A stretch of DNA of 64,000 nt from Hexactinellida sp. DTS-2022 (taxonomy: Eukaryota > Porifera > Hexactinellida). The position numbers and the translations under genes were made by a program. Of the stretch, positions 23,265 through 58,514 are shown in pieces. A model generated the notes under the pieces. That model was not told where the DNA came from, did not search any database, and saw only the letters and a list, made by a program, of their open reading frames with translations. Numbering within the stretch: position 1 is the stretch's first letter; the number at the start of each line of letters is the position of its first letter. Where the stretch lies: positions 5,893,042 to 5,957,041 of the forward strand of contig JAPNXP010000010.1 in assembly GCA_028753945.1 (NCBI GenBank), written 5' to 3'.

Positions 23265-23265
23265 T

Positions 23266-24090
23266 AATTATGAAGTTTCCTCTCTTATCTATTGTTAAGA
23301 AGTTAGCTGTTGTCATTTGTTGTTCCTGTCCTGTTAATTCTATCTTCTTTAGATAAGTACCGTCTCTGTTATAAGAAGTTAGCTGATGTCATTTGTTGTT
23401 CCTGTCCTGTTAATTCTATCTTCTTTAGATAAGTACCGTCTCTGTTATAGATAGTAATTCAGTGGGTGTTTCATTTTTCCATAACCGATTTCTTTCACAA
23501 ATTGGAGATTAACTATTTATATACTTTTAAATTTTTGATTTTGAGTTCCTAATTTCGGGGCTCAATTTCCTCCCGCATTTCTCTTGAATTTTCTGGATCG
23601 ATTCTATTTCCTTTCTCAGATCCATCAACTTGTCAGCCTCCTTTAAAATCGGAAAAAAACTAATTCAGCTTTTATAGTTTATTAAATTAAGCATTTTTTC
23701 CTGCATTTTTTCTTGATTTCTATCTGTCACAAACACTCCATCTTGTGACACACAAATACCATGTGGCTCTTTCAATTGGTCAGTTCCGAATGAACGCAGG
23801 TATTCTCCTTCTGTATTCAGTACTTGAATACGACTGTTATCTTTATCTGCAATTAACACTTCATTCGTATTTCTATCGACTGATATTCCTCTGGGATTAA
23901 TAAACTCTCCATCCTCAACACCCTTCATTGCACTTCTTAAGAACAGGGTTTACTCTCCCCACATACTCTGGTATCATTTCTATCAAATCAGTCTCTTCGA
24001 TCGCTTTACGAATCTTACCAGAGAAACAACGAAACTCAACAAACTCCAGATTCGCTACTGCTACCTTCTCAGCTGTTCTCAACTCAATTT
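23266..24090 (-). pseudogene. Broken copy of the NHL-propeller gene
   Basis: Minus-strand sequence matches the 401-residue NHL genes in pieces. 23701-24090 covers the end of the coiled coil and the first blades (SRIQVLNTEGEYLRSFG, PHGICVSQDGVFVTD) with stops and frame changes. 23266-23515 covers a later blade region, and the blades between are missing. A 76-bp segment is tandemly doubled (23301-23376, 23377-23452). Between the two homologous blocks, 23527-23661 is unrelated and could encode a coiled coil (KEADKLMDLRKEIESIQ). The N-terminal ~90 codons are absent. It is the fourth member of this gene family in the window. Confidence 0.85.
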
Positions 24091-25082
24091 ATTTATGCAA
24101 CTTTATAGTTTTAGTCGCTTTCAAGCCTTGATAACTTATTATTTATTATTTGTCTAATTTTATTTTTATCTTTGAGAGAGATTTGAATATTTGTATTTAG
24201 ATTTAAGATTTAATCAATTCAGGTAATAAACTTCCTTGTCGTTTAAACATGGGTACTTTGGAATTTGGATTTAAATACTAATTCAAGCCTTTGCTTTATA
24301 AAGGCCATCATTTTAACTATCTTATTATAGGAATAAACGTTAATTTAATGGAGCGTTAATTTCCTATAATAAGGTATTCAAACTTTTTATTTCGCGATCT
24401 TTTCTCGGTTTATTACCTTGGCGACTCAATATTCCAATGTAGCAGATAGGAACAAATAGTAATAATTATCAAGCTATATTATATTTTGATTACAGTAGAG
24501 CCTCTGAACAACGGACACCTTGGGACCGGAACCGTTGTCCGCTATTTAGAGGTTGCTTTTCTATTAGACATATGCTAAATAAATAAATCCGTGCCACGAG
24601 GGTTGTCCGCTATTTGGAGTGTCCGTTATGGGAGGCTCCACTGTATACGTATTTAGTATTCTAGCTATTTCCGGAAGAATTCTATTGAAAAAGACTTGTT
24701 TATTATATTCTCAAATAAATCAGTTTATTATAGAATGAATAACTGATTTATACTTTTTTATCACTTCATTAACAATGTCTTTTTTGTATGAATTTACTCT
24801 TTCTTTTTGCAAGTAATTTCTCAATGCTGTGAAAAGTAATTATTTCATACGTGTATTAATCCACGTTTATTATCCATGGTACTAGCAACCTCTTAACTAC
24901 AGTTATCATCCAACTTATATTGTGTGGCTTTGAAATGCCTTATACGTAAGAGAGGATAAAGTATCATATCAGGTCACCTGTTATATCATCTCATATACAT
25001 TTCAATGCATTCTAATTAGTACTACAATACATCAGGTATTTTACAATTACATTATTTGTTTTCTGTATTCTCTGTATTTTAT
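24091..25082. other. Intergenic region
   Basis: Contains the family H MITE (24493-24643) and a short palindromic stretch at 24323-24372 (CTTATTATAGGAA...TTCCTATAATAAGG) similar to the ends of the palindrome at 42371-42474. Otherwise AT-rich without a gene. Confidence 0.5.
24493..24643 (+). mobile_element. Family H MITE (pogo-like)
   Basis: CAGTAGAGCCTCTGAACAAC...GTTATGGGAGGCTCCACTG with TA flanks. Internal repeats of the core: AACGGACACC, CGTTGTCCGCTATTT and GTCCGCTATTTGG. The only copy seen here. Confidence 0.75.
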
Positions 25083-39912: not shown

Positions 39913-42900
39913 ATACATAAATTCTACATTTAGGCTCGACAAAAGAAAATATCTTCTGAACTTCATAAACTAGAATTAAAAGATGAGTCAAGTGAAGAGG
40001 ATACTTTTGAAAAAGACAGCATACAAGAAGAATCGACAGCAACTAGTGGCCGTTTGAAAAATATAATTTCTTCAAAATTCGGTATCGGAAGTGCTAAGAA
40101 TAAGCATGCCGCTGCAATGAATGCGCTTTTGCGAATGCGACCGAAAAATTTGCAGCGAAGAGGTAGTCAAGATGAGCTTAGAAGAATGGCTTTTAATTGG
40201 ATGGAAATACTAATCAATAGAATATCAACTCTATATAAGTTTTCAAAGGTTAGTTAGGTTAATAGAGTCACCTCGGGACCAGGTTATTTTGACACGATTA
40301 AGCGGAGATATCTATTAACCGACAAATTTTAAGCCAAATTGTCATTCTGTCCTATAAATTCTGTGAAATTATGACCCGATTAAGCGGAGAAATCTATTAA
40401 CCGGTGGCTCTATTAAGCGGAGTCGACTGTATATGGATAGGTAATAGATGATATTTACTATACAGTAGACTCTCTGTTAATAGGAACACCAGGGGAGCGT
40501 CGAAATACGTTCGTATTATCCGGAATTCGTATTAACCGGAGTCACTTGCATGCATTTGTATAGGCTAAGGTAATTAAACCTTGTACTCCTTATCTGTGTT
40601 CGTATTATGCAGAGTCTACTGTGTATGTATTTACCAAATAGGGTTAATTAATTTTCCAGCTGTGATTGTTGAAAGGAATCGTTGCTTAAAAAATGTCCTT
40701 TTTGTTCGAAATATATGCAATATTTTATGAAAGATTTTCTTACTTCGTCGTGTAACTAATTATATATGGTATAAGACAGTCTTAGTAGGATAAGCAATTA
40801 CACTCTTTAACCAAAAAGGAAGGGTTTACTAATATATCGGCCAACAGCTTTTCAATATAAATACTCAGAAAGGTGAATTTTTTATATTAAAAAATGACTT
40901 TGCCAGTATCTGAAAACAACATTAGAAATAGTGTTGGCTAATAATCAGGCCTCATTTAAATGAAATAGGCTTAATATAAATCTACCAATTAAATTGTATG
41001 AGGCACCCAAGGAATTATCCAGGAGCGCGAGACGCTCCTTTTGGAGTATGATTTTTGGAAAATTTGAATTTAGGACGAAAATTTGGAATCCTCCCCTATA
41101 CCGTAACATTAATCTGTGATTTAGGCGTATGATAATTAGATCAGACCATAATTAGGAGCGTATTTACAAATGGCTGTATAATCACTGGAGGCACCACAGT
41201 AGCTCACAGCTTGATAGGCTTAATATAAATCCACCAATTAAATTGTGGCCCTATGTTGTTCATACTGTATAGGCTTAATATAAATCGGACCAATTAAATT
41301 GTGCCCCTATGTTGTTCATACTTGTATACATAATTATGTGTGTAACAATTGAGGTTATACAGTAATTATGTGTGTAACAATTGAGGTTATACAGTAATTA
41401 TGTGTGTAACTATTAAGGTTATGCGGCATCACAGTAGCTCACAACTTGAGAGATCTGCCAGAATGGAAGCGGAACATGTTATGAGGATAGAAGACAGATC
41501 TGATCTCAGAAATAAATCTATTAAAGGGAGAACCAATGTTCCGTCTCTCCCGTTTAGACCTAGATCTCTCTTACCTCCAAGGTATAAACCTATTCTAAAC
41601 TAAACTACAGTAGAACATCGTTAATATGTACACCAAGGGACCGTCATAATGTGTGCTAACGAGGCTCTACTGAATTAAATGCAGTCAGGTCTGCTTATTG
41701 TTAACAATTTTTCGTCTGCTTAATATGAAAAACATTCGTTATGAACATTATGTTATGAACAAGCCCTATGGTCCCAATTTAACAACATGTATTAAGTTGA
41801 GTTCGCTTATTATGAAGTCTTTCTTTCTTTATGAAAACACAATTTTTGGTCCCTTGAATGTTCACAATAAGCAGGCTTGACTGTAGTTCCTATAACAAGT
41901 TGTATTTATTTGCCATTATACTCAGGTACATACGAATTCTATACAAATACCCCGAAGCACGTACTGAATCAGATATTTCAGAATTGAGAGTATTCCTTCG
42001 TTCCAGCATAAACGAATTCAGACAATATTCAGAATCAACTCAGATTTCGCTATGCATGTCTATGTATTATATATTATATGAGAAAGGTCGAGTAATTGTA
42101 AGGCAAGGGCATCTTGGGAAAAACTTCTATATAATACTATCAGGTGAGATAGTGCAAAGTTTAATTGTTACTTTTCACGTATTGTTAGATAGCTATAACT
42201 AGTGTGACTATATTATGTTAACTAGTCTATTATTTAAAGCGCCTTTTTTAACGTTTAATGATTGAATTACATGTGCATCTTAAGGAAATTGGAACTATAA
42301 TTATTGGCGCTTTAATTTAGGCGCATAATAGTTACAAATATAGTTCCTGTTGTCCGCTTAAAATAGAACTACCTTATTACAGGAAATTAAAGCGCCATGA
42401 AATTAATACGAAATTAACTCGAATTGGAGTAATTCGCGTTAATTTCATGGCGCTTTAATTTCCTATAATAAGGTCTGATTAATTAGCTCAATATTTTACA
42501 GGTTAATATAACTGAATTTGCAACGTTTTCGGTGATTTGGATTTCCACTTTATTGGGTCAAAATAACATCGAACCAAATTTACCCAATTTAACGGAGTCG
42601 ATTGTATTTAGAAATAATTCAATAAAAAGTGCTTTTATTAAAGCTCTATTATATAAGTAAACTAAATATATTCATAAATGAGTTTGCGTAGAATTATGTA
42701 ATCTTTTTAAACGAAATTTTTCTGTAATTCATTAACGTATATACCCGTATTACTCAACTTATAAATTAAGTGACATTAAGTCTAGGTAATACACAAATGC
42801 GTCTGTATTTACACAATTGAGTTTACAGCAGGTTCATAAATGCAATTCATGTTTCGTCTGGTCACTTTCCCACTTACCCATTCTAAAACTCATTAGTTTG

Positions 42901-46700: not shown

Positions 46701-47374
46701 GAGACTGAAAAATTCGTATTAACTGGAAATTCATATTAACCGGAGTCACTTGCATGCATTTGTATAGGCTAGGCCGCTAGGGGATTTAAACCTTGTACAC
46801 CTTAACCAAGGAATTATCCAGGAGCGCGATACGCTCCTTTTGGATTAAGATTTTTGGAAAATTTGAAATTAAGAGCGTGAAAATTTGGAATCCTCTCCTA
46901 TACCTTAACATTAATCTGTGATTTAGGCGTATGAAAATTAGATCAGACCAGGATTAGGAGCGAATTTACAAATGGCTGTATAATACACTGACCTTAACCG
47001 ACATTCGCCTTATCCGTGTTCCTATTAACGAGAGTCTACTGTTTGTTGGTTTAAGTGTTTATTTGTTAAGTGTGCATATAGATATCTCCCCTACTGATTG
47101 TGTGCCTCACATGTATGGGATAATAACCAGAGACGGTAGAGCTTACCTACAGTTAAGAGAGTTATGTTCAGGTGACATATTTGAGTTGACAGAAATGTAT
47201 AAATCCCATCTATCCAAAACGGGAGGACGAGCTAATAAACAAGCCATGAATTATACACAGTCGCTAATGCTAGTTAGTAATGGAGCTAAACTGTTGCAAA
47301 TTACAAAGTCAAAGTTTAAAAGCAAAGCTGGTGGAAGTTTTTTGGATACTTTATACAAGTATTTTATCAAGTAA
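38768..47374 (+). CDS. CNBD2: CNBD2-like cyclic-nucleotide-binding-domain protein (seven exons)
   Basis: Model: 38768-38896, 39934-40248, 41418-41581, 41926-42143, 43772-43998, 46230-46554, 47082-47374; 1671 nt, 556 residues, all junctions GT-AG and in phase. Two regions match human CNBD2 as I recall it: EKGRVIVRQGHLGKNFYIILSG plus KFGEIAFLRKTTRTATVVCCEDSELLMVDKELF form one cNMP-binding fold, and VGLFESWSYSDLEE plus LFYLVVEGKCRVLKEI the next. CNBD2 is testis-expressed and binds cAMP. The usual FGELAL...PRAAT-type phosphate cassette reads FGEIAFLRKTTRTAT here; the arginine-alanine pair is altered, so ligand binding is uncertain. Exons 1-2 are basic and low-complexity. Exon 3 and the last junction are the least certain; ATCAA/GTAAGT at 47367-47376 could be a donor to an unseen exon. 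Confidence 0.78.
39023..39366 (+). mobile_element. Family F MITE interrupted by family K
   Basis: CAGTAGAACTCGGTTATAAC...CATTATAACCGAGTTCTACTA. Family K sits at 39157-39328 with TA on both sides. Confidence 0.8.
39157..39328 (+). mobile_element. Family K MITE nested in family F
   Basis: CAGTAAAACTTTTAGAAAGT...GTTCACTTTTGGAGGTTTTATTG, 172 bp; core AAAGTGAACACC/GTTCACTTT repeated four times. The TA target duplication is visible. Confidence 0.8.
39633..39788 (+). mobile_element. Family A MITE
   Basis: CAGTAGAGCCTCGTTAGTAG...CTAACGAAGTTCTAATG; 156 bp with a small internal loss. Confidence 0.75.
39849..39911 (+). repeat. (TTG)n microsatellite, about 21 units
   Basis: Pure GTT/TTG repeat in intron 1, just upstream of the exon 2 acceptor, where it also acts as a pyrimidine-rich tract. 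Confidence 0.9.
40250..40429 (-). mobile_element. Family E MITE beginning at the exon 2 donor
   Basis: GGTTAATAGAGTCACCTCGG...ATTAAGCGGAGTCGACTG. The right terminus is complete; the left one is lost at the exon/intron boundary (donor AAAG/GTTAGT at 40248). Confidence 0.7.
40463..40621 (+). mobile_element. Family B MITE, complete
   Basis: CAGTAGACTCTCTGTTAATA...ATTATGCAGAGTCTACTG, with the CACTTGCATGCATTTGTATA block that marks the family. Confidence 0.8.
40960..41440 (+). repeat. Nested direct repeats overlapping the start of CNBD2 exon 3
   Basis: GGCTTAATATAAATC(x)ACCAATTAAATTGT occurs three times (about 40968, 41217, 41270). GGCA(C/T)CACAGTAGCTCACA occurs at 41190 and again inside exon 3 at 41426. 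A 32-bp unit (TAATTATGTGTGTAACAATT...) is repeated 2.5-3 times at 41333-41424, the last copy ending in the acceptor AG at 41416-41417. Confidence 0.8.
41008..41187 (+). mobile_element. Family L MITE with 8-bp target duplication (hAT-like)
   Basis: CAAGGAATTATCCAGGAGCG...GGCTGTATAATCACTG, flanked by GAGGCACC at 41000-41007 and 41188-41195. Eight-base duplications and CA...TG ends fit hAT. Confidence 0.85.
41608..41672 (+). mobile_element. Minimal family A MITE, 65 bp
   Basis: CAGTAGAACATCGTTAATAT...CTAACGAGGCTCTACTG with only the ACACCAAGGGACCGTC block between. Little more than the two termini; 27 bases after the exon 3 donor. Confidence 0.75.
41682..41883 (+). mobile_element. Family C MITE
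   Basis: CAGTCAGGTCTGCTTATTGT...AGCAGGCTTGACTG; ends 42 bases before the exon 4 start. Confidence 0.75.
42371..42474. repeat. 104-bp near-perfect palindrome
   Basis: ACCTTATTACAGGAAATTAA and AGCGCCATGAAATTAA mirror TTAATTTCATGGCGCT and TTAATTTCCTATAATAAGGT. A diverged relative lies at 24323-24372. Family S; no target duplication resolved. Confidence 0.8.
43260..43476 (+). mobile_element. Family B MITE
   Basis: CAGTAGACTCTCGTTAATTA, ACACCAGGGGACCGTCGAAA, CACTTGCATGCATTTGTATA, then a mirrored GACGGTCCCTAGTCTTCGTA and a damaged right end. Confidence 0.7.
43709..43746 (+). repeat. (TTAG)n microsatellite, 9 units, ending TTAGGGG
   Basis: AGTTAGTTAGTTAG... directly followed by GGGTTCTACTATACTATTTG and the exon 5 acceptor at 43770-43771. 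It may contribute to the pyrimidine tract. Confidence 0.9.
43999..44599 (+). other. Intron 5 of the CNBD2-like gene, upstream of nested NPRL2
   Basis: Contains a family M copy (44040-44166) and AT-rich sequence that must hold the NPRL2 promoter. No clear core promoter motif seen. Confidence 0.5.
44040..44166 (+). mobile_element. Family M MITE
   Basis: TATAGGCTAACACCTTTTCT, TTTCAGGCACTGGCAAGGTC, then ATATTGAAAAGGTGTTTTCC and GATATATAAGTAAGCCC. Confidence 0.7.
44600..45766 (+). CDS. NPRL2: NPRL2, GATOR1 complex subunit, nested in a CNBD2 intron
   Basis: 388 residues in one exon (human NPRL2 is 380). Matches along the length: AIAFLEFTDLGPTLIRQSP, LYEDKKLIGHAKSIEGEYRRNTYSFN (human KLIG...YSRNALLFN), SYLTSQRDKLQFVLDKILEGL, DLTITEVLSRIDEIRPLNLLAKDCNVTL, LLAQTGLVRRIIEFGIFNKLI. 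The family has an N-terminal longin domain, a linker and winged helices, pairs with NPRL3, and with DEPDC5 forms GATOR1, the RagA/B GAP that shuts off mTORC1 when amino acids are low. It lies on the same strand as CNBD2, between its exons 5 and 6, so it needs its own promoter and poly(A) site. Some vertebrate motifs, such as FFCEFHPTLGPKI, are looser here. Confidence 0.9.
   Translation: MTLNAETFPIPSAIAFLEFTDLGPTLIRQSPIGYFTHEQISKMHSFVFPSASLFDKTLTLLYEDKKLIGHAKSIEGEYRRNTYSFNVLLCFEGNLDIFPYQAILKKLVNEFCVYETEESYLTSQRDKLQFVLDKILEGLQMHGKVNLEITDSNCLFLKIIPTNICNMDPIEPRSVPILNHNIRNISHTELDLTITEVLSRIDEIRPLNLLAKDCNVTLKELGTDVTRHLQYFNIVKGYVPLFQYTNAYLISPNISLLLNNTEFQRKMIVYLKKDFDLHQFCINDIIKLFLSLKHAQSLYQLYRLELNEMHLLAQTGLVRRIIEFGIFNKLIIPLKEYLYITPNSGGRFSGLLGRNDEFVEVGALCWNQGGLHRDFALQILEEYTTLYV
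45768..46073 (+). repeat. (TTTG)n microsatellite, about 300 bp
   Basis: GTTT/TTTG units with TTGATTTG and TATTTG interruptions. A 60-bp block (TTTGCTATTTGATTGTTTAT...) is doubled at about 45876 and 45951. It begins right after the NPRL2 stop. No AATAAA seen between stop and repeat. Confidence 0.95.
46599..47041 (+). mobile_element. Hybrid family A/B MITE with a family L insert
   Basis: Left end is family A (CAGTAGAACCTCGTTAGTAG, GTATCGAAAAGGCTTTGAAG); from 46738 it is family B (GGAGTCACTTGCATGCATTT, GGGGATTTAAACCTTG) and ends AACGAGAGTCTACTG. Family L is inserted at 46807-46990. Lies in intron 6 of the CNBD2-like gene. Confidence 0.8.
46807..46990 (+). mobile_element. Family L MITE with 8-bp target duplication (hAT-like)
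   Basis: CAAGGAATTATCCAGGAGCG...GCTGTATAATACACTG, flanked by ACCTTAAC on both sides (46799-46806, 46991-46998). The target lies within family B sequence. Confidence 0.88.
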
Positions 47375-47419: not shown

Positions 47420-47801
47420 CAGTCAGGTCTGATTATTGTGAACAATTTTCGTCTGCTTAATATGAAACTTAATATTATTATTATGAAATTACTTATATAG
47501 AGCTGAGCTTTGTAGAGTTCAGTTTTTCACTATGTGTATTCATGCACTGAGAAAGGTCAGTTTTTTTCCAGAATTTGAAATTGACCTTTAGAAAGTAAGC
47601 CTGGGCTTTTAGTATGGGAAAAAATCTGAACTCTACAAAGCTCAGCTCTATATAAGGATTCCCTATTATTATTAACAAGCCCTATGGTCCCAATTTAACC
47701 ACTTATATAGGGTTTATATTAAGTTGAGTTCGCTTATTATAAAGTTTATATATCATGAATACAATTTTTGATCCCTTGAATGTTCATAAATGAATTGAAT
47801 G
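47420..47801 (+). mobile_element. Family C MITE of unit 1, interrupted by family O
   Basis: CAGTCAGGTCTGATTATTGT...CCTTGAATGTTCATAAATGA. Its counterpart in unit 2 (52754-52940) is uninterrupted. Confidence 0.8.
47487..47664. mobile_element. Family O foldback MITE, inserted after the duplication
   Basis: ATTACTTATATAGAGCTGAG...CTCAGCTCTATATAAGGAT, inverted arms with GAGCTTTGTAGAGTTCAG. Absent from the matching place in unit 2, where TATTATTATTAACAAGCCC is continuous. Confidence 0.85.
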
Positions 47802-47929
47802 TATTTATAATTGTATACTTGGGGGAGGCAAATGTTTATTCGTAGAAGAATCAATACTACAAGATATCAATACAAATGTAATACAAAAAGTATTATGGTA
47901 AACAGCATGCAATAACTAATGGAATTATG

Positions 47930-49135
47930 TTAGTATTTCTGGAAGCAGTCATTAGCATCACCATTACACATACAAATAATATTATCTGTGTTGTCTAGCA
48001 GAATACCGTTTAAGCATGTGAGGTGCCCTTTGCCTAGAGAATGCTTGAGTACTCCGTCAGGCGAGAAGATGCGGATTTCGTTAATTGACCAATCAGTAAT
48101 TAGGAAGTTTCCTCTCTTATCTATTGTGAAGAAGTTAGCTGAAGTCATTTGTTGTTCTTGTCCACTTAATTCTATCTTCCTCAGATAAGTACCGTCTCTG
48201 TTGTAGCAGTAGATTGTATTCTGGTCTAGAGTTATAATGTGGAGAGTGTCTGAGTGTATAGCGATGTCAGTGGGGAATTCGATTTCTCCATAACCGAAAC
48301 GTTTAACAAATTGGAGATCTAAGTTAAATACTTGGATTCGTTGTACATTACAATCACAGACATATACGAATCCCGCTTCATAACACAATCCTGCTATTCC
48401 ATTAAAGCATCCAGGTGTAGTACCTCTAGAGCCAGTTTTCTTAATGAACTTTCCGGCTAGACTAAACCTCAACAAACATTCTGTAGCATCATCTGTCACA
48501 AACACTCCATCTTGTGACACACAAATACCATATGGCTCTTTCAATTGTTTAGTTCCGAATGAGCGCAGGTATTCTCCTTCTGTATTCAGTACTTGAATAC
48601 GACTGTTATCTTGATCCGCAATGAAAACCTCATTCGTATTACTATCGACTGATATTCCTCTGGCATTACTAAACTCTCCATTTCCTCTACCCATCTTACA
48701 CTTCTTAAGAACAGGGTTTACTCTCCCCACATACTCTGGTATCAGTTCTATCAAATCAGTCTCTTCGATCGCTTTACGAATCTTACCAGAGAAACAACGA
48801 AACTCAACAAACTCCAGATTCGCTACTGCTACCTTCTCAGCTGTTCTCAACTCAATGTCTACATCTAGCCTCTCTTTGATAGCGTCTAGGGACTGGCCTA
48901 CTAAGTTGCTAACCATTGTACCCTGAATGGTATTCCTTGTTATCCTCAGCTGACTAATCGCTTCCTCCAATTCCACATTCCTATCGTGTCCCTCTTTGAT
49001 CCTGGCAAGTCGGGACAGGAGGCAGTTCCTGCGTTCCTCGAGACTCCGTAACAGCTCTTCGAACGTGCGGAGTATCTCCAACTTAAGGGCTTCTAGCCTA
49101 GCGTCGATATCGAATGCTTCTCTTGCAGCGGCCAT
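47930..49135 (-). CDS. Coiled-coil/NHL beta-propeller protein, unit 1 copy
   Basis: 401 residues, one exon. Residues 1-100 are a long coiled coil (LEALKLEILRTFEELLRSL, ERRNCLLSRLARIKEGH); about 145-401 are six NHL blades (GEFSNARGISVD, NEVFIAD, GICVSQDGVFVTD, GFVYVCD, GNFLITD, DNIICMC). This is a TRIM2/3/71-like body without RING or B-box. Compared with the unit 2 copy, residues 1-147 differ at one position (K118R); residues 148-401 differ at about 41, mostly clustered once per blade near 156-158, 175-176, 196-197, 216-220, 245-250, 263, 279-287, 302-304, 331-334, 347-351, 373-379 and 391-394. The pattern suggests variation on one face of the propeller. Function unknown; no signal peptide, so probably cytosolic. 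Confidence 0.9.
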   Translation of the reverse strand: MAAAREAFDIDARLEALKLEILRTFEELLRSLEERRNCLLSRLARIKEGHDRNVELEEAISQLRITRNTIQGTMVSNLVGQSLDAIKERLDVDIELRTAEKVAVANLEFVEFRCFSGKIRKAIEETDLIELIPEYVGRVNPVLKKCKMGRGNGEFSNARGISVDSNTNEVFIADQDNSRIQVLNTEGEYLRSFGTKQLKEPYGICVSQDGVFVTDDATECLLRFSLAGKFIKKTGSRGTTPGCFNGIAGLCYEAGFVYVCDCNVQRIQVFNLDLQFVKRFGYGEIEFPTDIAIHSDTLHIITLDQNTIYCYNRDGTYLRKIELSGQEQQMTSANFFTIDKRGNFLITDWSINEIRIFSPDGVLKHSLGKGHLTCLNGILLDNTDNIICMCNGDANDCFQKY

Positions 49136-49184
49136 TTGGTATTAGGTTATTTGTCTAATAATTATGGGATGTACACAACTTTAT

Positions 49185-49304
49185 AAAAATCTAAAATTAC
49201 ACCTGTGCCGACAAAATGTTCTTTTGGAGGCACTACATTTTGTTGGTTGGTTGGTAGTGCCTCCATAAGAAAATGCTGTCTGCACAGGTGTAATTTTAGA
49301 TTTT
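49185..49304. mobile_element. Family T foldback MITE, unit 1
   Basis: AAAATCTAAAATTACACCTG...CAGGTGTAATTTTAGATTTT with GGAGGCACTAC/GTAGTGCCTCC arms. It lies 50-170 bases upstream of the NHL ATG and is retained in unit 2 (54325-54439). Confidence 0.8.
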
Positions 49305-50811
49305 AAGTCATGTCATCAACATCAAAAGGTGTTAAACCATTGCACAAAGGTGTTTCGGAATTTAAGATCCTTCGTAGATTAATGATATTTAGCTAGTTAG
49401 TATAAATAATAATTTAATTTATTAATAATATAACACCAATTTTAGTGTAAAGTTAAATTTATTTAGTAATTATTTGGAATATGTAGTTAACTATTAATTT
49501 TAGATACATTTCCCTACAATATTTGAATTCTGCACTCTAAGTTATCCCTATAAACAAATTAGAAGCGTCTTTAAACACGTATGTTAAATACAGACGGTAT
49601 TAATTGTAATTTAATTTTTTAGTATATTTATTGTACATGCGTATTCTTGTAGAAGGAAATTAAACACACAATCTGACATTGTTAGGGAATATAATCTTAA
49701 TCTCAATTAGAAAATAGAAGCCTACTCGCAAGTTGTATCAATATAATGATCACAAGTTGAAATAATAGAATTAGATATAACACTTTAAGTTGAACAGAAC
49801 TGTTAGTAAACAAAGGAAATTAACAACTCAATTATGGCACAAACTAAGCCAAATTTGAAATTCGTGCAATGTGAAAAGATGTAGAATTAATTTATCTATC
49901 GAATGCCTATAAATTGAATAGTGGGCACTATTTATTGTAACTGTTGTGACATAAAATAGGTGTAAAATATGTCCAAAAATAAAGCAAAATCGCGATCCAA
50001 AGCGCACATTTGTAATCCATGAGAAACCTATTCTGAAAATTGGGGCTCTTAGTTAATAAACTGTTCTGTGGAGAAAATAGGTAGCAAAAAATCTAAAATT
50101 ACAGCTGTGCCGACTGCATGTTCCTTTGGAGGCACTATATTTTGGTGGTTTGTGGATTTATAGTGCCTCCAAAATGAAATTGCCAACGGAAATCCGGCAG
50201 AACGATTTAGAACTGTGCATTTTATAGTATACAACTATAGTATGAATATGCACACAAAAATTAGTAGCGTCAAAGTTTTGGTGAACCACGTAACGATTTT
50301 CAGCTTTATTTCAAGTTTATTTCACGCAGTTAGCCAATATAATGAAGTTTATAGTTTTGTTAATTAACACAATAATTAGCACTTAAAATTATTAATTATT
50401 CACTATAACTCACTTGATAATGTGATGATAATAACAAGGAACGAACTTTTGTTGTTGTTGTTGTTGTTTGGTATTGTTTTGTATGTGATATATTGATAAC
50501 TCAATGGGATATATTTTATATATTTTAGCTATAACTTTCAAATATATAGTAAGCAAAGTTTTCTCAATTTGTGGGTCTACAAAATTGACTCAACTATCAG
50601 ATTACCTCAAACTAACAAAACTAATATATTATTTATTTCAAAAGTTGATATTTGATATAGTTGAATGTTTAATGTAACTTAGTGTATAATGTATCAGGGT
50701 ACATCTAAGGGATTCAATTTAATATAACATCATATTAATAACTTATAAATGTAGATATGTTTTCGTTTAGACCACAGAAATTAGAATATTTAATAGAAAC
50801 CATTATACATT

Positions 50812-50903
50812 ATATAGTAGATTTTCGCTAATCCGAACAGAGGTGTTCTGATTCAAAATTTTCTGTTTCGATTAGTGAAATGTTCGGATTAGTTGGAGTA
50901 ATA
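50812..50903. mobile_element. Family J MITE remnant, unit 1
   Basis: TAGTAGATTTTCGCTAATCC...TGTTCGGATTAGTTGGAGT; core CTAATCCGAACA mirrored by TGTTCGGATTAG. The unit 2 copy is at 56357-56442. Confidence 0.65.
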
Positions 50904-51105
50904 CATTTTATGTGGAAACACATTTCTAGTGCATCATCTATAAAATAAAAACCTCGATGATCCAACTTAAATTATTCAAACTTTTAACAGTCAATTAATC
51001 ATCATAAAGAGATTACAATATGAACTTTAAATTTAGATTATATTACTATTCATGACTATCAATGATTATTTATCACAAAAACAATAACACTTGGGCCTAC
51101 TGAAG

Positions 51106-51122
51106 TAAATATATATATAAAT
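51106..51122 (+). promoter_or_regulatory. Candidate TATA element of the 421-aa gene
   Basis: TAAATATATATATAAATTC followed by a CACACCTATCATT direct repeat, about 50-65 bases before the ATG. Conserved base for base in unit 2 except one position in the repeat. Motif match only. Confidence 0.35.
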
Positions 51123-51172
51123 TCACACCTATCATTCACACCTATAATTATCACTCAATCGTTATTATTTTC

Positions 51173-52438
51173 ATGGCATCTTTTATTGTGAGTTCGCAAT
51201 CAAATCCAAACGAGCCTAAAAACGAATATTTGGAGACTATAAACGGGAAAAAGCGAACTGTTCATGAAGAATTTCAATCATACCATCTTCTATTAGAAGC
51301 TAAAGAATCTCAAATTTGCACTCAACTAGACGGAATTTGTATTTCAGAAAATGACAAATTCCACGATTCGCTACAACCAACAAGCGACATGATTATATAC
51401 CTTTCTTCTCAAGTTCAGAACTTACAACTTTGTTTCCAAGAAAAGAACATGCTGCATAATGTCGAATATTACATAGTTGGTTTGCTGCAAGTTTTAGAGG
51501 AGAAAAAGAGATTGGAACAATCACCACCGATTCTTTCAATAAAACTTACTTTCGATACGAAATTAAGGGATATGCTTAACAGTTGTTGTACTATCGAACA
51601 AATAAGTGTTTTCCGTTATGACCCATATCCGGCTAAATTCCGTAACAAACAAACTCCAAATGAATCAATTGAAGCCTTGGCCATTGACCCTGCATCAAAC
51701 CGTTTATTCGCTCTCGTAAAAAGCACTGCTTCTTGCATTAAAATATTCAATACAGACGAATTAACCGAAGTAGCAACATTCGCAGACCAAAAAATTATGT
51801 TTCCAAATAACCTAGCACTTTGTGGAGAATTTATTTTCATTGTTTGTGATCGATCTCTCTTGAAATTAACAAAACATCCACTAGCCGTGATTGAAATCGC
51901 TAATAGTCAATCTACATTTTCAGGTTTAGCTATAAACTTCATAAACCCAAGTGTTTATATTGGTATTGCTGAGAAATTAGTAATAAATGTTTTCGATATC
52001 GAACTTCAACAAATCAAGGTCATACAATTGAAAACATCCGAGCAAACTAAACATAGGAAACATACAAGGATTCAAAACATTTGCATAGTACAATCTGAGT
52101 TATATGTATTGTTTTCAAACACAAACCATCCATTACAATCCTATACCCTCAGTGGAGAAGTTTTGAGGTGTATTATTCCAGAAAGTTTACTGAAAGAAGG
52201 TAGAAAGTTTTGTTTTGATCATCACCTGAATATTTTCATCACAGATCGAGACGCACATGAACTAAAAATGTTCACAAATGAAGGAATTATTGTCCATAAA
52301 ATGGGTCATGAGGGTTGTACTCCTGGGAATTTTTCTTTCCCCAATGGCCTAGCTATTGATGACACGGGTAGTTTGTTTGTCACAGACGGAAAAGATAATG
52401 CCATGATGCAAAAGTTTGTTGTTAAAAGACCTTATTGA
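51173..52438 (+). CDS. Coiled-coil plus NHL-like propeller protein, unit 1 copy
   Basis: 421 residues, one exon. About 30-120 is helical/coiled coil (EEFQSYHLLLEAKESQICTQ, NVEYYIVGLLQVLEEKKRLEQ); about 140-421 is a degenerate six-bladed propeller: ESIEALAIDPASNRLFALV, FPNNLALCGEFIFIVCD, SGLAINFINPSVYIG, IQNICIVQSELYVLF, FCFDHHLNIFITD, FPNGLAIDDTGSLFVTD. It is a distant relative of the neighbouring 401-aa NHL family with the same coiled-coil-then-propeller plan. It differs from the unit 2 copy at only about 8 residues (20, 68, 74, 75, 86, 128, 175 and one near 236), so this pair is much more conserved than the adjacent NHL pair of the same duplication age. Function unknown; probably cytosolic. 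Confidence 0.85.
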   Translation: MASFIVSSQSNPNEPKNEYLETINGKKRTVHEEFQSYHLLLEAKESQICTQLDGICISENDKFHDSLQPTSDMIIYLSSQVQNLQLCFQEKNMLHNVEYYIVGLLQVLEEKKRLEQSPPILSIKLTFDTKLRDMLNSCCTIEQISVFRYDPYPAKFRNKQTPNESIEALAIDPASNRLFALVKSTASCIKIFNTDELTEVATFADQKIMFPNNLALCGEFIFIVCDRSLLKLTKHPLAVIEIANSQSTFSGLAINFINPSVYIGIAEKLVINVFDIELQQIKVIQLKTSEQTKHRKHTRIQNICIVQSELYVLFSNTNHPLQSYTLSGEVLRCIIPESLLKEGRKFCFDHHLNIFITDRDAHELKMFTNEGIIVHKMGHEGCTPGNFSFPNGLAIDDTGSLFVTDGKDNAMMQKFVVKRPY

Positions 52439-53067
52439 GAGTTAATAAGTAAAATCCATTTATCCATGTTCTTCCAATGTATGTTATATTATAATTGATA
52501 AACTAATACCTTCATTTGAATAATTAACATAATTAACAAATTCCTGTATTGTGATATGACTCAAATTCATATTTCTGATAATTAATAAGTAAACTTATAT
52601 CCATGGTTATTTACTACCAATGATAATAGTATTCTAATTACTATTGTTTGTTATAATATTAATAAACTACATAATCGTTAGTTAATTTTGGAAACTTTAT
52701 ACAAGTATTTTATCAAGTAAGTTGTTGTTGTTGTTGATTTAATCGTTACACAAAAGTCAGGTCTGCTTATTGTGAACAATTTTCGTCTCCGTGATATGAA
52801 ACTTATTATTATTAACAAGCCCTATGGTCCCAATTTAACCACTTACATATGGTTTATATTAAGTTGAGTTCGCTTATTATGAAGTTTATATATCATGAAC
52901 ACAATTTTTGTCCCTTGAATGTTCATAAATGAAATGACTGTATTATAATTGTACACTTTGGGGAGGCAAATGTTTATTAGTAGAAGAATCAATACTACAA
53001 AATATCAATACCAATGTAATACAAAAAGTATTATGGTAAACAGCAAGGAATAACTGATGGAATTAGG
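52439..53067. other. Junction region between the two units
   Basis: 3' flank of the unit 1 421-aa gene, the duplication junction at 52685/52686 with the 35-base CNBD2 exon remnant (TTTATACAAGTATTTTATCA), a (GTT)n tract and the uninterrupted C element 52754-52940. Confidence 0.7.
52754..52940 (+). mobile_element. Family C MITE of unit 2
   Basis: AGTCAGGTCTGCTTATTGTG...GTTCATAAATGAAATGACTG; the empty counterpart of the O insertion in unit 1. Confidence 0.75.
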
Positions 53068-54273
53068 TTAGTATTTCTGGAAGCAGTCATTATCATCACC
53101 AATACACATACAAATAATATTATCTGTGTTGTCTAGTGTAATACCGGATAGGATTCTGAGGTGCCCTTTGCCTAGAGAATGCTTGAGTACTCCGTCAGGC
53201 GAGAAGATGCGGATTTCGTTAGTTGAGCTATCAGCAATTAGGAAGTTTCCTCTCTTATCTATTGTGAAGAAGAAGGCTGATATCATTTGTTGTTCCTGTC
53301 CTCTTAATTCTATCTTCTTTAGATAAGTACCGTCTCTGTTGTAGCAGTAGATAGTATTCTGGTTTCGAGATATAATGTGGAGAGTGTCTGAGTGTATAGC
53401 GATGTCAGTGGGGGCATTGATTTCTCCATAACCGAGCTCTTTAACAAATTGGAGATCTAAGTTAAATACTTGGATTCGTTGTACACTACAATCACAGACA
53501 TATACGAATCCCACTTCATAACACATTCCTGTTATTCCAGTAAAGCATCCTGGTGCAGTTCCCCTAGAGCCAGTTTTCTTAATGAACTGTCCGGCTAGAC
53601 TAAACCTCAACAAACTTTCTGTAGCCCTATCTGTCACAAACACTCCATCTTGTGACACACAAATACCATGTGGCTCTTTCAAGTGGTCAGTTCCGAATGA
53701 ACGCAGGTATTCTCCTTCTGTATTCACTACTTGAATACGACTGTTGCTAAAATCAGCTACGAAAACCTCATTCGTATTTCTATCGACTGATATTCCTCTG
53801 GGATTATTAAACTCTCCATTTCCACTACCCTTCTTACACTTCTTAAGAACAGGGTTTACTCTCCCCACATACTCTGGTATCAGTTCTATCAAATCAGTCT
53901 CTTCGATCGCTTTACGAATCCTACCAGAGAAACAACGAAACTCAACAAACTCCAGATTCGCTACTGCTACCTTCTCAGCTGTTCTCAACTCAATGTCTAC
54001 ATCTAGCCTCTCTTTGATAGCGTCTAGGGACTGGCCTACTAAGTTGCTAACCATTGTACCCTGAATGGTATTCCTTGTTATCCTCAGCTGACTAATCGCT
54101 TCCTCCAATTCCACATTCCTATCGTGTCCCTCTTTGATCCTGGCAAGTCGGGACAGGAGGCAGTTCCTGCGTTCCTCGAGACTCCGTAACAACTCTTCGA
54201 ACGTGCGAAGTATCTCCAACTTAAGGGCTTCTAGCCTAGCGTCGATATCGAATGCTTCTCTTGCAGCGGCCAT
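53068..54273 (-). CDS. Coiled-coil/NHL beta-propeller protein, unit 2 copy
   Basis: 401 residues, one exon, intact. N-terminal 147 residues are the same as the unit 1 copy except R118. The first ~440 coding bases differ by only three substitutions, whereas the propeller half differs at about 41 residues (for example ADFSNS for ADQDNS, RATES for DATEC, KELGYGEINAP for KRFGYGEIEFP, ADSST for TDWSI). The partial gene at 2-955 shows a third set of residues at the same places (ADEGNS, KATDS, KEFGYGEIEFP, TDLST). Blade-framework residues (RGISVD, NSRIQV, GICVSQDGVFVTD, TIYCYNRDG, IRIFSPDG) do not change. Likely a binding protein whose ligand surface varies among paralogues; that is inference. Confidence 0.9.
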   Translation of the reverse strand: MAAAREAFDIDARLEALKLEILRTFEELLRSLEERRNCLLSRLARIKEGHDRNVELEEAISQLRITRNTIQGTMVSNLVGQSLDAIKERLDVDIELRTAEKVAVANLEFVEFRCFSGRIRKAIEETDLIELIPEYVGRVNPVLKKCKKGSGNGEFNNPRGISVDRNTNEVFVADFSNSRIQVVNTEGEYLRSFGTDHLKEPHGICVSQDGVFVTDRATESLLRFSLAGQFIKKTGSRGTAPGCFTGITGMCYEVGFVYVCDCSVQRIQVFNLDLQFVKELGYGEINAPTDIAIHSDTLHIISRNQNTIYCYNRDGTYLKKIELRGQEQQMISAFFFTIDKRGNFLIADSSTNEIRIFSPDGVLKHSLGKGHLRILSGITLDNTDNIICMCIGDDNDCFQKY

Positions 54274-56714
54274 TTGGTATTAGGTTATTTGTCTAATAAT
54301 TAAGGGATGTACACAACTTCATAAAAATCTAAAATTATACCTGTGCCGACAACATGTTCTTTTGGAGGCACTACATTTTGTTGGTTGGTAGTGCCTCCAT
54401 AAGAAAATGCTGTCTGCACAGGTGTAATTTTAGATTTTACGTCATGTCATCAAAAATGTGTCAAACCATTCACAAAGGTGTTTCGGAATTTAAGATCCTT
54501 CGTAGACTAATGATATTTAGCTAGTTAGTATAAATAATTATATAATTTGTTAATAATTTAACACCAATTTTATTGTAAAGTTAAATTTATTTAGTAATTA
54601 TTTGGAATAGTTAACTATTAATTTAGAAACATTTCCCTACAATATTTGAATTCAGCACACTAAATTATCCCCTATAACTGCTAGGGTGCGACCCGTACGG
54701 GCTTTTTTGTAAATCACGGGCTGCGGGCCTTTTTTCACAGGCCGCGGTCCAAAACGGGCCGAAAAGAGTCAAAAAGATCAATTGCTAATTTTTCAATAAC
54801 AAATAATTGTAAACGTCTAGATGCACTAAAGCTACTAACTTCCATCATTAATAGAAAGAAAACAACTAAACGCAACTATCAAAGTTTTGCCGGTATAAAA
54901 AGTTTCATATATATATAATTTACGCATACGATTTCCCGCATCTTATAACGCGGAAATATATGAATTCTCAATTATTAGAGAATATTTTCACGAATTTAGC
55001 CAACGGTGCAATAAAATAAACAAATTTTCTAGTCTACGGGCTGGCGGAATAAATAAGCGGGCCACGGGCCGCGGGCTTTGAATAACGGGCCACGGGCCAT
55101 GGGCTTTACGGGTCGCACCCTAGCCTATAAGCAAATTGGAATCGTCTTTATACGTATGTTACATACAGACGGTATTAATTGTAATTTAATATTTCAGTAT
55201 ATTTATTGTACATGCGTGTTCTTGTAGAAGGAAATTAATCACACAATCTGACATTGTTAGGGAATATAATCTTAATCTCAGTTAGAAAATAGAAGCCTAC
55301 TCAATCTCACAAGTTGTATCAATATAATGATCACAAGTTGAAATAATAGAATTAGATATAACACTTTCAATTGAACTGAAGTGTTAGAAAGCAAAGGAAA
55401 TTAACAACTCAATTATGGCACAAACTAAGCCAAATTTGAAATTCGTTCAATGTGAAAAGATGTAGAATTTATTTATCTATCGAATGCCTATAAATTGAAT
55501 ATTGGGCACTATTTATTGTAACTGTTGTGACATAAAATAGGTGTAGAATGTGTCCAAAAATTAAGTTCTGAAAATTGGGGCTCTTAGTTAATAAACTGTT
55601 CTGTGGAGAAAATAGGTAGCAAAAAATCTAAAATTACAGCTGTGCCGACTGCATGTTCCTTTGGAGGCACTATATTTTGCTCGTTTGTGGATTTAAGCGC
55701 CTCCAAAATAAAATTGCCGACGAAAATCCGACAGAACGATTTAGAACTGTGCATTTTATAGTATACAACTATTGTAGGAATAAGCACGCAAAAATTAGTA
55801 GCGTCAAAGTTTTGGTGAACTTCGTAACGATTTTCAGCTTCATTTCAAGTTTATTTCATGCAGTTGGCCAATAAAATAAAGTTTATAGTTTTGTTAATTT
55901 CCATAATAAGTAGCGCTTAAAATTATTAATTATTCACTATAACTCACTTGATAATGCGATGATAATAACAAGGAACGAACTTTTGTTGTTGTTGTTGTTG
56001 TTGTTGTTGTTGCTTGGTATTGTTTTGTGCGTGATATATTGATAACTCAATGGGTTATATTTTATATATTTTAGCTGCAACTTTAAAATATATAGTAAGC
56101 AAAGTTTTCTCAATTTGTGGGTCTACAAAATTGACTCAACTATCAGATTACCTCAACTAACAAAACTAATATATTATTTATTTCAAAAGTTGATATTTTA
56201 TATAGTTTAATTTAATGTTTAATGTAAGTTGTGTATTATTATGTATCATGGTACATCTAATTTATATAAACATCATATTAATAACTTATAAATGTAGATA
56301 TGTTTTCGTTTAGACCACAAAAATTTGAATATTTAATAGAAACCATTATGCATTATACAGTAGATTTTCGCTAATCCGAACAGAGGTGTTCTGATTCAAA
56401 ATTTTCTGTTTCGATTAATGAAATGTTCGGATTAGTTGGAGTAATTCATTTTCTGAACAAACACATTTCTAATGCATCATCTATAAAATAAAAACCTCGA
56501 TGATCCAACTTAAATTATTCAAACTTTTAACAGTCAATTAGTCATCATAAAGAGATAAGAATTTGAACTTTCAATTTAGATTATATTACTATTCATGACT
56601 ATCAATGATTATTTATCACAAAACAGTAACACTTGGGCCTACTGAAGTAAATATATATATAAATTCACACCTATCATTTACACCTATAATTATCACTCAA
56701 TCGTTATTATTTTC
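54274..56714. other. Bidirectional intergenic region, unit 2
   Basis: Same content as the unit 1 region (family T at 54325-54439 and 55620-55756, (TTG)n 55985-56011, family J 56357-56442) plus the GC-ended insertion. The (TTG)n tract is longer than in unit 1. Confidence 0.6.
54678..55123. mobile_element. 446-bp transposon with GC-rich inverted ends, inserted after the duplication
   Basis: Ends CTAGGGTGCGACCCGTACGG and AAGCCCATGGCCCG...CGGGTCGCACCCTAG in inverted order (right end GGGCTTTACGGGTCGCACCC), AT-rich inside, flanked by CCTATAA at 54671-54677 and 55124-55130. Unit 1 has the empty site (TATCCCTATAAACAAATT). A 7-8 base duplication and TAGGG-type ends suggest a hAT-like non-autonomous element. 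Subterminal CGGGC(C/T) repeats are numerous. Confidence 0.85.
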
Positions 56715-57980
56715 ATGGCATCTTTTATTGTGAGTTCGCAATCGAATCCAAACGAGCCTAAAAACGAATATTTTGAGACTATAAACGGGAAAAAGCGAAC
56801 TGTTCATGAAGAATTTCAATCATACCATCTTCTATTAGAAGCTAAAGAATCTCAAATTTGCACTCAACTAGACGGAATTTGTATTTCAGAGAATGACAAA
56901 TTCCACGATTCGCTAGAACCAACAAGCGACATGATTCTATTCCTTTCTTCTCAAGTTCAGAACTTACAACATTGTTTCCAAGAAAAGAACATGCTGCATA
57001 ATGTCGAATATTACATAGTTGGTTTGCTGCAAGTTTTAGAGGAGAAAAAGAGATTAGAACAATCACCTCCGATTCTTTCAATAAAACTTACTTTCGATTC
57101 GAAATTGAGAGATATGCTCAACAGTTGTTGTACTATCGAACAAATAAGTGTTTTCCGTTATGACCCATATCCGGCTAAATTCCGTAACAAACAAACTCCA
57201 AATGAATCAATTGAAGCTTTGGCTATTGACCCTGGATCAAACCGTTTATTCGCTCTCGTAAAAAGCACTGCTTCTTGCATTAAAATATTCAATACAGACG
57301 AATTAACCGAAGTAGCGACATTCGCAGACCAAAAAATTATGTTTCCAAATAACCTAGCACTTTGTGGAGAATTTATTTTCATTGTTTGTGATCGATCTCT
57401 CTTGAAATTAACGAAACACCCAATTGCCGTGATTGAAATCGCTAATAGTCAATCAACATTTTCAGGTTTAGCTATAAACTTCATAAACCCAAGTGTTTAT
57501 ATTGGTATTGCTGAGAAATTAGTAATAAATGTTTTCGATATCGAACTTCAACAAATCAAGGTCATCCAATTGAAAACATCGGAGCAAACTAAACATAGGA
57601 AACATACAAGAATTCAAAACATTTGCATAGTACAATCTGAGTTGTATGTATTGTTTTCAAACACAAACCATCCATTGCAATCCTATACCCTCAGTGGAGA
57701 AGTTTTGAGGTGTATTATTCCAGAAAGTTTACTGAAAGAAGGTAGAAAGTTTTGTTTTGATCATCACCTGAATATTTTCATCACAGATCGAGACGCACAT
57801 GAACTAAAAATGTTCACAAATGAAGGAATTATTGTCCATAAAATGGGTCATGAGGGTTGTACTCCTGGGAATTTTTCTTTCCCCAATGGCCTAGCTATTG
57901 ATGACACGGGTAGTTTGTTTGTCACAGACGGAAAAGATAATGCCATGATGCAAAAGTTTGTTGTTAAAAGACCTTATTGA
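56715..57980 (+). CDS. Coiled-coil plus NHL-like propeller protein, unit 2 copy
   Basis: 421 residues, one exon, about 98% identical to the unit 1 copy. Domain plan as described there: helical N-terminal third, then six degenerate propeller blades ending NGLAIDDTGSLFVTDGKDN. Differences include F20, E68, L74, F75, H86, S128 and G175, most of them in the coiled-coil third rather than in the propeller, opposite to the neighbouring 401-aa pair. Both copies look functional: no stops, conserved upstream TATA-like element, conserved 3' flank. Confidence 0.85.
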   Translation: MASFIVSSQSNPNEPKNEYFETINGKKRTVHEEFQSYHLLLEAKESQICTQLDGICISENDKFHDSLEPTSDMILFLSSQVQNLQHCFQEKNMLHNVEYYIVGLLQVLEEKKRLEQSPPILSIKLTFDSKLRDMLNSCCTIEQISVFRYDPYPAKFRNKQTPNESIEALAIDPGSNRLFALVKSTASCIKIFNTDELTEVATFADQKIMFPNNLALCGEFIFIVCDRSLLKLTKHPIAVIEIANSQSTFSGLAINFINPSVYIGIAEKLVINVFDIELQQIKVIQLKTSEQTKHRKHTRIQNICIVQSELYVLFSNTNHPLQSYTLSGEVLRCIIPESLLKEGRKFCFDHHLNIFITDRDAHELKMFTNEGIIVHKMGHEGCTPGNFSFPNGLAIDDTGSLFVTDGKDNAMMQKFVVKRPY

Positions 57981-58514
57981 GAGTTAATAAGTAAAATCCA
58001 TTTATCCATGTTCTTCCAATGTATTGTTATATTATAATTGATAAACTAATACCTTCATTTGAATAATTAACATAATTAACAAATTCCTGTATTCTATTGT
58101 GATATGACTCAAATTCATATTTCTGATCATTAACAAGTAAACTTAATATCCATGGTTATTTACTACCAATAATAATAGTATTCTAATTACTATTGTTATG
58201 TTATAATTAATAAACTACATAATCGTTAATTAATCGCCAAAATTAGTTTATATTTATAGTACTTCATGAATTTACCAGCTTCATTTGTATAAGCTAGGGG
58301 AATTTATCCTTTTAACTGTGTTCGTTTTAACGAGATTCCACTGTACTATTAAGGTACAATTGTATATGAATTATTCATGCAACATGTGTTATAAAGTATT
58401 TTAATGTTCAAGCAATAATAAAGTTTTGATATTTTATTATAAGCTAATTCATAATCCAAAAGTGTTTGAGTAAAAACTAAAGAAAACACACAAACTAACG
58501 TTAAAATCCACAAG
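57981..58514. other. 3' flank of unit 2 and spacer to the acyltransferase gene
   Basis: Conserved with unit 1 to 58234. Then a B-element right half (58271-58344, TAAGCTAGGGGAATTTATCC...ACGAGATTCCACTG). A poly(A) signal for the minus-strand acyltransferase gene is TTTATT at 58433-58438 (AATAAA in reverse). Confidence 0.6.

Follow-up and report, generated by a model that had tools for sequence, protein, structure and literature searches.

The glass sponge Hexactinellida sp. DTS-2022 carries a large, clustered family of genes that exchange sequence between copies and encode a helical N-terminal region followed by a six-bladed NHL β-propeller. Positive selection is concentrated on one putative ligand face of that propeller in all four subfamilies modelled (groups A to D), less clearly in group A, where a tree-free test on disjoint pairs was not significant. 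We infer from the sequences, with a probability of roughly 0.6, that these genes supply a germline-encoded repertoire of recognition proteins that work inside the cell, probably in innate immunity. The first-pass annotation had proposed "variable recognition proteins" as an attractive idea; this is still an interpretation, yet it is the best one.

The window, by which we mean the whole 64,000-nucleotide stretch analysed, contains two complete group A genes of 401 codons, both on the minus strand and both without internal stops: copy 1 (L031, 53068–54273) and copy 2 (L033, 47930–49135), which match Pfam NHL at 1.8e-20 and 6.3e-17, respectively. A third group A gene (L032, plus strand), described at first as a partial copy, is indeed cut by the window edge so that only its 3′ part is present (2–955), but its full reading frame is intact in the genome. 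There is also a decayed group A remnant (23230–24130, minus strand), detected with tblastn and blastn, in which the matches are broken across several frames. Copies 1 and 2 lie inside a tandem duplication identified by self-BLAST (47664–52686 and 52804–58234; two matches of 93.5% each), with about 450 bp of additional sequence separating the halves of the second unit. The same duplication includes a divergent pair of coil-NHL genes of 421 codons (51173–52438 and 56715–57980, both plus strand), whose dS of 0.077 and dN of 0.008 indicate ordinary purifying selection. In copy 1, codons 1–135 (53869–54273, minus strand) are near-identical to those of copy 2 and are predicted to form long helices, probably a coiled coil, at a pLDDT of at most 56 per block; no TRIM coiled coil appeared among ten sequence matches to this region, at E up to 5. 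Codons 142–401 (53071–53850, minus strand) form the six-bladed NHL propeller, as found in TRIM-NHL (RBCC-NHL) proteins.

Copies 1 and 2 differ at 73 bases, giving 42 nonsynonymous and 12 synonymous codons. The near-identity of the 5′ part noticed in the first-pass annotation is borne out by only three differences (at 66, 82 and 353) within the first 440 coding bases, and its estimate of about 41 changes in the last 254 residues agrees with the 41 of 42 nonsynonymous codons located there. Among the 12 positions it quoted as recurring with the blade period, ten alter the residue; positions 333 and 375 differ only synonymously, but their neighbours 334 and 376 change the residue. The top face was defined as the B–C and D–A loops and the two residues that open strand A. 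It makes up 94 of 259 positions and carries 28 of the 41 propeller changes (Fisher p=5.8e-6); the strand A residues were joined to it only after the family pattern was known, and without them the count is 23 of 41. Bottom loops hold three. Omega for the whole propeller of this pair is 1.00, and the loop excess becomes clear only from the family, not from the window pair alone.

The low-divergence tract of the pair runs from about −150 to +442 relative to the ATG, that is, roughly 150 nucleotides of non-coding DNA and the first 442 coding bases (1.2% versus 10.0% divergence). It occupies 48694–49285 in copy 2, with limits set from the divergence profile, and 53832–54423, with approximate ends, as the matching interval of copy 1 (both minus strand). 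Its end near codon 148 places the boundary where it had been expected, near codon 147. Because the upstream non-coding DNA and the synonymous sites are homogenised too, the tract points to conversion rather than to protein constraint alone. The flanking DNA had been called intermediate, which fits only in part: divergence is 2.7% in the 150 nucleotides upstream and then 5.6%, but reaches 19% still further upstream, and in the 300 nucleotides downstream it is 7–12%, like the propeller.

Across the four groups, 5′ homogenisation is not a general rule. For group C, 330 of 351 pairs had lower synonymous divergence in the N-terminal part than in the propeller, but this held for only 232 of 406 pairs in group B, 87 of 231 in group A, to which the window genes belong, and 2 of 105 in group D. 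Trees of the N-terminal part and of the propeller reject each other in topology tests in all four groups; the PHI value at non-hypervariable sites was reached by none of 1000 shuffles in any group; and mosaics among copies are visible, for example L044/L051/L049. The claim of exchange rests on these three lines, because tests confined to silent sites were significant in group A only, both for PHI and for a Sawyer-type run test on silent codons (p=0.003 in A; 0.068, 0.163 and 0.377 in B, C and D).

An Antp-type homeodomain query against the 112 Mb genome gave only three hits, at most 46% identical and by eye Msx-, NK- and Bar-like; no Hox-like gene was among them, which speaks against Xenoturbella bocki as the source. 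The genome contains at least 428 distinct full-length coil-NHL loci, 403 of them without stops, and 292 of the 428 lie within 25 kb of another. The count is a lower bound, made by hand-picking rows with at least 350 aligned residues among the matches listed, and remoter members such as L122 and the 421-codon genes of the window stand outside it. Each gene is one open frame of roughly 400–440 codons encoding the coil and the propeller. Selection was tested in groups A to D, with 15–29 sequences each; groups E, F, H, H2, I, I2 and C2 enter the count only. Group A was represented by 22 of the 30 loci L031–L060, omitting L038 and L047 (stops) and the incomplete L052, L055 and L057–L060; from L001–L030 we omitted the incomplete L012, L024, L025, L027, L029 and L030, the group E pair L016/L017, and L014, whose protein is identical to that of L013. 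Alignment columns with 40% gaps or more were removed before codon modelling.

Positive selection is strong in the propeller and absent to weak in the N-terminal part. Twice the log-likelihood difference between M8 and M8a was 104.5, 814.5, 468.5 and 178.1 for the propellers of groups A to D, versus −0.3, 25.0, 19.0 and 5.4 for the N-terminal parts, so that B and C, and weakly D, favour M8 there too. The codon models (M8/M8a, FEL) are our own implementation and can be inflated by recombination, a concern that segment trees and tree-free counts lessen but do not remove; with its own tree, each third of the propeller preferred M8 in 12 of 12 cases (6.5–307.5). Of the 111 selected sites, 82 belong to the D–A and B–C loops on one side of the propeller and another 19 to the beginning of strand A next to them, while loops of the opposite face have three. 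The proposal that one face diversifies is thus upheld by 101 of 111 selected codons across the four subfamilies, and neither of the outcomes set against it in advance, sites scattered over the fold or omega below 1 at the variable sites, was found for the family. Summed over groups, 82 of 340 top-loop columns were selected versus 3 of 179 bottom-loop columns; taken singly, groups A (p=0.05) and D (0.051) are borderline. Selection recurs at homologous positions in all six group pairs (Fisher p 1.9e-6 to 2.9e-12), and positions 148, 157, 175, 176, 200, 202, 216, 248, 263, 287, 303, 334, 349 and 376 (copy 1 numbering) were selected in at least three groups.

All 14 positions corresponding to RNA contacts in LIN41 were selected in at least one subfamily. 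At this set, fixed in advance, the ratio of pN to the pS of the propeller body was 2.0, 7.8, 4.2 and 5.3 in groups A to D for close pairs, and 1.4, 9.2, 3.5 and 4.0 for disjoint pairs, the group A value being non-significant (1.40, CI 0.90–2.30). In groups B, C and D the hypervariable codons show an excess of synonymous differences as well; for this reason pN/pS within those codons is low in group D (0.89 for all pairs, 1.08 for close pairs), where the excess exists only relative to the pS of the remaining propeller. The propeller body of group B is weakly constrained (pN/pS 0.92). Strings of hypervariable residues are nearly all unique: 21 of 22 in A, 29 of 29 in B, 26 of 27 in C and 15 of 15 in D. 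Hypervariable codons often show two or three base differences, and synonymous diversity next to them is no different from that farther off, giving no sign of a mutation hotspot. Directed hypermutation, which the multiple base differences and the raised pS in B, C and D brought into consideration, is not favoured, since neighbouring invariant codons (13–41 per group) have no synonymous excess; a mechanism restricted to the single hypervariable codons may operate.

Each protein consists of an N-terminal region that is helical, probably a coiled coil, and likely serves for dimerisation, a linker, and a propeller whose top face presents hypervariable loops as a paratope-like patch. New copies arise by tandem duplication, of which the window holds an instance; the trees show different histories for the N-terminal part and the propeller, as conversion or exchange would leave; and in the four subfamilies positive selection alters the amino acids at one end of every blade. 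The most likely function would be innate sensing of diverse foreign or microbial polypeptides, comparable to that of B30.2-TRIMs and fungal HNWD propellers. The family differs from the TRIM-NHL proteins TRIM71/LIN41, TRIM2/3, Thin and Brat in its hundreds of paralogues, in contact positions that are hypervariable and not consistently basic, and in the lack of RING or B-box domains from 14 ORFs scanned with Pfam, although a separate upstream exon could supply these. The same scan of 14 NHL proteins found no known immune effector domains.

FinTRIM and other B30.2 TRIMs resemble the family as large, tandemly expanded sets of coiled-coil proteins with diversifying loops in a C-terminal recognition domain, but their recognition fold is not NHL and they possess a RING and B-box. 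Tachylectin-2 is a propeller lectin and, to our knowledge, not an NHL protein. Its coral gene, described as having a putative role in immunity, is reported to be highly diverse in amino-acid sequence and under positive selection (PMC2880987), like the present family, but is apparently a single gene. A further likeness is to the WD40 propellers of Podospora HNWD proteins (het-d/het-e), reported to evolve in concert and to combine a conserved scaffold with hypervariable positions under diversifying selection that share a single interaction surface (PMC12222747); there, homogenised WD40 repeats of an NLR are reshuffled as units, whereas the sponge family uses NHL blades. It further differs in having no NACHT domain in the scanned ORFs and in varying between paralogues.

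A less probable alternative is RNA-directed defence, in which the ligands of the propellers would be a variety of RNAs, foreign or from transposons, and each copy chases another element, an RNA counterpart of KRAB zinc-finger arrays. Selected sites are enriched in Tyr, Trp, His or Arg (in group C, Tyr 13.9% versus 3.2% and Trp 7.9% versus 1.0%). Their makeup in groups B to D, where Tyr, His, Trp or Gly abound, argues against RNA as the ligand, although the argument is less clear for group A, with its higher share of Arg and Lys. Net charge at the 13–14 LIN41-contact positions, a residue count rather than an electrostatic surface, averages 0.5, −0.4, 1.4 and 0.0 in A to D versus +7 in LIN41, with extremes across proteins of −3 to +6, the latter reached by single group C proteins. 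Group means thus fall short of a LIN41-type basic top-face pocket, and plain LIN41-type binding of the RNA backbone is disfavoured because selected sites are not consistently basic.

Allorecognition, or other within-species self-recognition with co-evolving protein partners, is unlikely. Fungal HNWD propellers do serve this role, with the hypervariable positions gathered on a face of the propeller (PMC12222747), but surface contact is improbable for the sponge proteins because their ORFs, judged by eye, have no obvious signal peptide, and more than 400 dispersed loci exceed, in our judgement, what such systems usually need. Still less likely is endogenous regulatory diversification, with copies acting as substrate adaptors or RNA regulators that each have a different self target. 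Other animals do use TRIM-NHL proteins as regulators (PMC5908797), but near-unique loop strings in close paralogues together with strong positive selection are, we judge, not what stable self targets would usually produce. Relaxed constraint, mutation bias or assembly error in place of adaptive diversification is the least credible, for while it could accommodate the omega of just 1.0 in the window pair, the raised synonymous differences in B, C and D and the disjoint-pair result in A, it sits badly with contact-set pN 3.5- to 9.2-fold above body pS in disjoint pairs of B, C and D, with far less variable positions between the loops, with the missing synonymous hotspot beside them, and with 403 of 428 stop-free ORFs.

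For the repertoire of recognition proteins that we prefer, it is about an even bet that the NHL propeller serves a non-bilaterian animal as a scaffold in the manner of antibodies, with more than 400 intracellular germline genes whose copy-specific top faces favour Tyr, Trp, His and Arg and were produced by tandem duplication, exchange and selection on loops. The open-licence literature searched, at the level of titles and abstracts, yielded no description of an NHL-fold variable recognition repertoire. Because the selected sites are exact and common to the subfamilies, the identity of the ligand is directly testable. If the reading is true, a scaffold known from work on RNA regulation and ubiquitin ligation became, in an early-branching animal that has no antibodies, the basis of several hundred recognition genes, which would show the evolvability of the NHL top face, the face that reads RNA in LIN41 and Brat.

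Two complete coil-NHL genes of 401 aa each are present as ORFs on the minus strand of the window (C2:5893042-5957041), at 47930-49135 and 53068-54273, together with a third (L032) at the window edge, whose full ORF lies partly outside the window, and a decayed remnant of the same subfamily, group A (23230-24130, minus strand), with matches spread across three frames. The complete genes are contained in a tandem duplication (47664-52686 versus 52804-58234) that also carries a divergent pair of 421-aa coil-NHL genes (51173-52438 and 56715-57980), one beside each group A copy. NHL repeats were detected by Pfam in all five coil-NHL proteins of the window; RING and B-box domains were detected in none of them. 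A short dispersed repeat (~185 bp, 76-91% identical) also occurs in the window, at 46806-46990, 41007-41187, 15948-16107 and 16361-16522.

As the first-pass annotation had observed, the two 401-aa copies have few base differences at the 5' end (3 of 73 fall within the first 440 coding bases) and differ at 41 of the last 254 residues. Their divergence profile is a mosaic. A tract that starts ~150 nt before the ATG and extends to coding base 442 is 1.2% divergent. The remainder of the aligned gene half, comprising the propeller, non-coding DNA 3' of the gene and the more distant upstream DNA, is 10.0% divergent (Fisher p=7.9e-15), and the partner half of the duplicated unit 3.9% (p=4.7e-4 relative to the tract); both p-values are optimistic because the tract limits were picked from the profile itself. 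The homogenisation earlier proposed for the 5' part is thus borne out, the tract stopping near the coil/propeller boundary and including synonymous sites. Conversion of the tract accounts for the low 5' divergence better than protein constraint does, since non-coding DNA in front of the gene shows the low value as much as synonymous sites do. For the final 254 codons, dN and dS are both 0.098 (omega 1.00); the 421-aa pair of the same duplication, which is a natural control, has an omega of 0.10, indicating purifying selection.

The window genes belong to a large, clustered family with a conserved scaffold. Searching the genome with one query for each of seven sequence groups, which gives a lower bound, recovered at least 428 distinct loci with at least 350 aligned residues each, of which at least 403 are stop-free. 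They are spread across all 18 contigs, and at least 292 lie within 25 kb of another. An Antp-type homeodomain query of the genome gave three hits, the best at 46% identity, and no Hox-like gene; with 18 chromosome-sized contigs, this points to a sponge, tentatively a demosponge. Judging by ORFs in the genome matches, a typical member is one open frame of ~400-440 codons. N-terminal regions of eight group representatives share 20-27% identity with the window protein and align with two invariant columns and a recurrent PxY/PDY linker motif. Group I forms two dense arrays (C17:293000-511000 and C6:900000-1141000), with stops in 8 of 54 full-length copies among the matches listed. Two group C loci ~75 kb apart, L008 and L009 (C1:13.68 and 13.76 Mb), encode proteins that are 100% identical (rounded) and represent a very recent duplication inside an array.

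Coil and propeller have different histories. In all four groups tested (A-D), N-terminal and propeller trees rejected each other by the AU test. PHI was significant in all four groups at non-hypervariable sites, and in A only at silent sites; association between hypervariable sites weakens with distance in B and C but only slightly in A, and is noisy in D. Locus L051 (C1:14.47-14.56 Mb), whose N-terminal half is as in L044 and whose C-terminal end resembles L049, looks like a chimera at the sequence level. Greater homogenisation of the coil does not hold throughout: group D is reversed, N-terminal dS being lower in 2 of 105 pairs.

Models M0, M7, M8a, M8 and FEL were fitted with custom code to aligned complete genes (22, 29, 27 and 15 in A, B, C and D, the order used below), with separate trees for N-terminal part and propeller. 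In the propeller, M8 was favored over M8a with 2dlnL of 104.5, 814.5, 468.5 and 178.1, and assigned an omega of 3.5-7.6 to 6-27% of codons; estimates with a single omega were 0.41, 1.90, 0.91 and 0.57. The N-terminal values of 2dlnL were -0.3, 25.0, 19.0 and 5.4. FEL (p<0.05, uncorrected) gave 6, 40, 23 and 3 positive sites in the propeller and 1, 6, 1 and 2 in the N-terminal part. When the propeller was cut into thirds, each with its own tree, the M8 signal was kept in all 12 segments (2dlnL 6.5-307.5).

AlphaFold2 predicted a six-bladed propeller well, and the helical N-terminus poorly, for the window's proteins. A blade of four antiparallel strands has its B-C and D-A loops on one face (here, top) and its A-B and C-D loops on the opposite one. 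With faces assigned from the strand order of the model and this standard topology rather than from coordinates, the diversification of one face suggested by the first-pass annotation is supported: among the 111 sites with M8 posterior >0.95 in the four groups together, 82 are placed in B-C or D-A loops and 3 in A-B or C-D loops, a further 19 occupy residue 1 or 2 of strand A, on the same rim, and 7 fall in other strands. Fisher p for top versus bottom loops was 0.05, 2.2e-8, 1.5e-4 and 0.051. At 14 homologous positions, selection is seen in at least three of the four groups, and sharing exceeds chance in all six group pairs (p 1.9e-6 to 2.9e-12). The group B D-A loop ahead of blade 5 (model residues ~323-333) is nearly all hypervariable and varies in length, slightly like a CDR3.

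A contact set chosen before testing came from zebrafish LIN41, in which 14 residues contact RNA according to Kumari et al. 2018 (PMC5908797), mapped via mouse TRIM71 chain 8j72 (14 letters agree) and its alignment to the family. Selected contact positions numbered 5/14, 14/14, 11/13 and 8/14. The tree-free ratio of contact-position pN to body pS in close pairs was 2.0, 7.8, 4.2 and 5.3; in disjoint closest pairs it was 9.2 (7.3-11.7) in B, 3.5 (2.8-4.6) in C and 4.0 (2.1-10.9) in D, and not significant in A (1.40, CI 0.90-2.30). Body pN/pS in the latter pairs was 0.31, 0.92, 0.32 and 0.34. Bottom-loop pN over body pS was 0.16-0.66. Counting against selection, pS itself is elevated at hypervariable codons in three groups (B, C and D). 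Moreover, while pN/pS inside M8 sites is 1.54 (all pairs) or 2.27 (close pairs) in A, 1.68 or 1.83 in B, and 2.62 for group C, it reaches no more than 0.89 or 1.08 in D. Two- or three-base differences, which by themselves raise counted pS, make up 45-66% of differing pairs at hypervariable codons versus 10-21% elsewhere in the propeller, and invariant codons adjoining hypervariable ones had no synonymous excess in any of the four groups (p 0.34-0.91, 13-41 codons). Positive selection is one-sided in all four subfamilies tested.

Hypervariable strings are unique in 21/22, 29/29, 26/27 and 15/15 proteins; N-terminal parts are distinct in 21/22, 29/29, 27/27 and 15/15, with fewer changes. Selected sites of group C are enriched in Tyr (13.9% vs 3.2%) and Trp (7.9% vs 1.0%); B and D trend likewise, and the sites of A have more Arg, Lys, Asn and Gln. 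Mean net charge at contact positions is 0.5, -0.4, 1.4 and 0.0 (-3 to +6 in single proteins), LIN41 having +7.

Coil-NHL proteins share their fold with TRIM-NHL proteins; neither RING nor B-box was detected in the 14 ORFs scanned. TRIM-like genes with a partly lost RBCC signature are already known (PMC3503706). The same principle is seen in fungal HNWD propellers, there with WD40 repeats as the scaffold (PMC12222747). Searches of openly licensed literature yielded no account of a diversifying NHL repertoire. Of two sponge immune-receptor papers, the consulted parts of PMC8242945 mention NHL a single time, among the domain names keyed in a figure legend, and those of PMC6208332 do not mention it.

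Coil-NHL proteins are probably cytosolic, as no signal peptide is evident by eye, and may dimerize via the coil, the top face binding a ligand that would differ from copy to copy. RNA binding by this face is possible because the selected positions include RNA-contacting ones. The near-neutral, Tyr/Trp/His/Gly-rich face of groups B-D suggests instead that the ligands are polypeptides, and the arms-race signature suggests that they are foreign.
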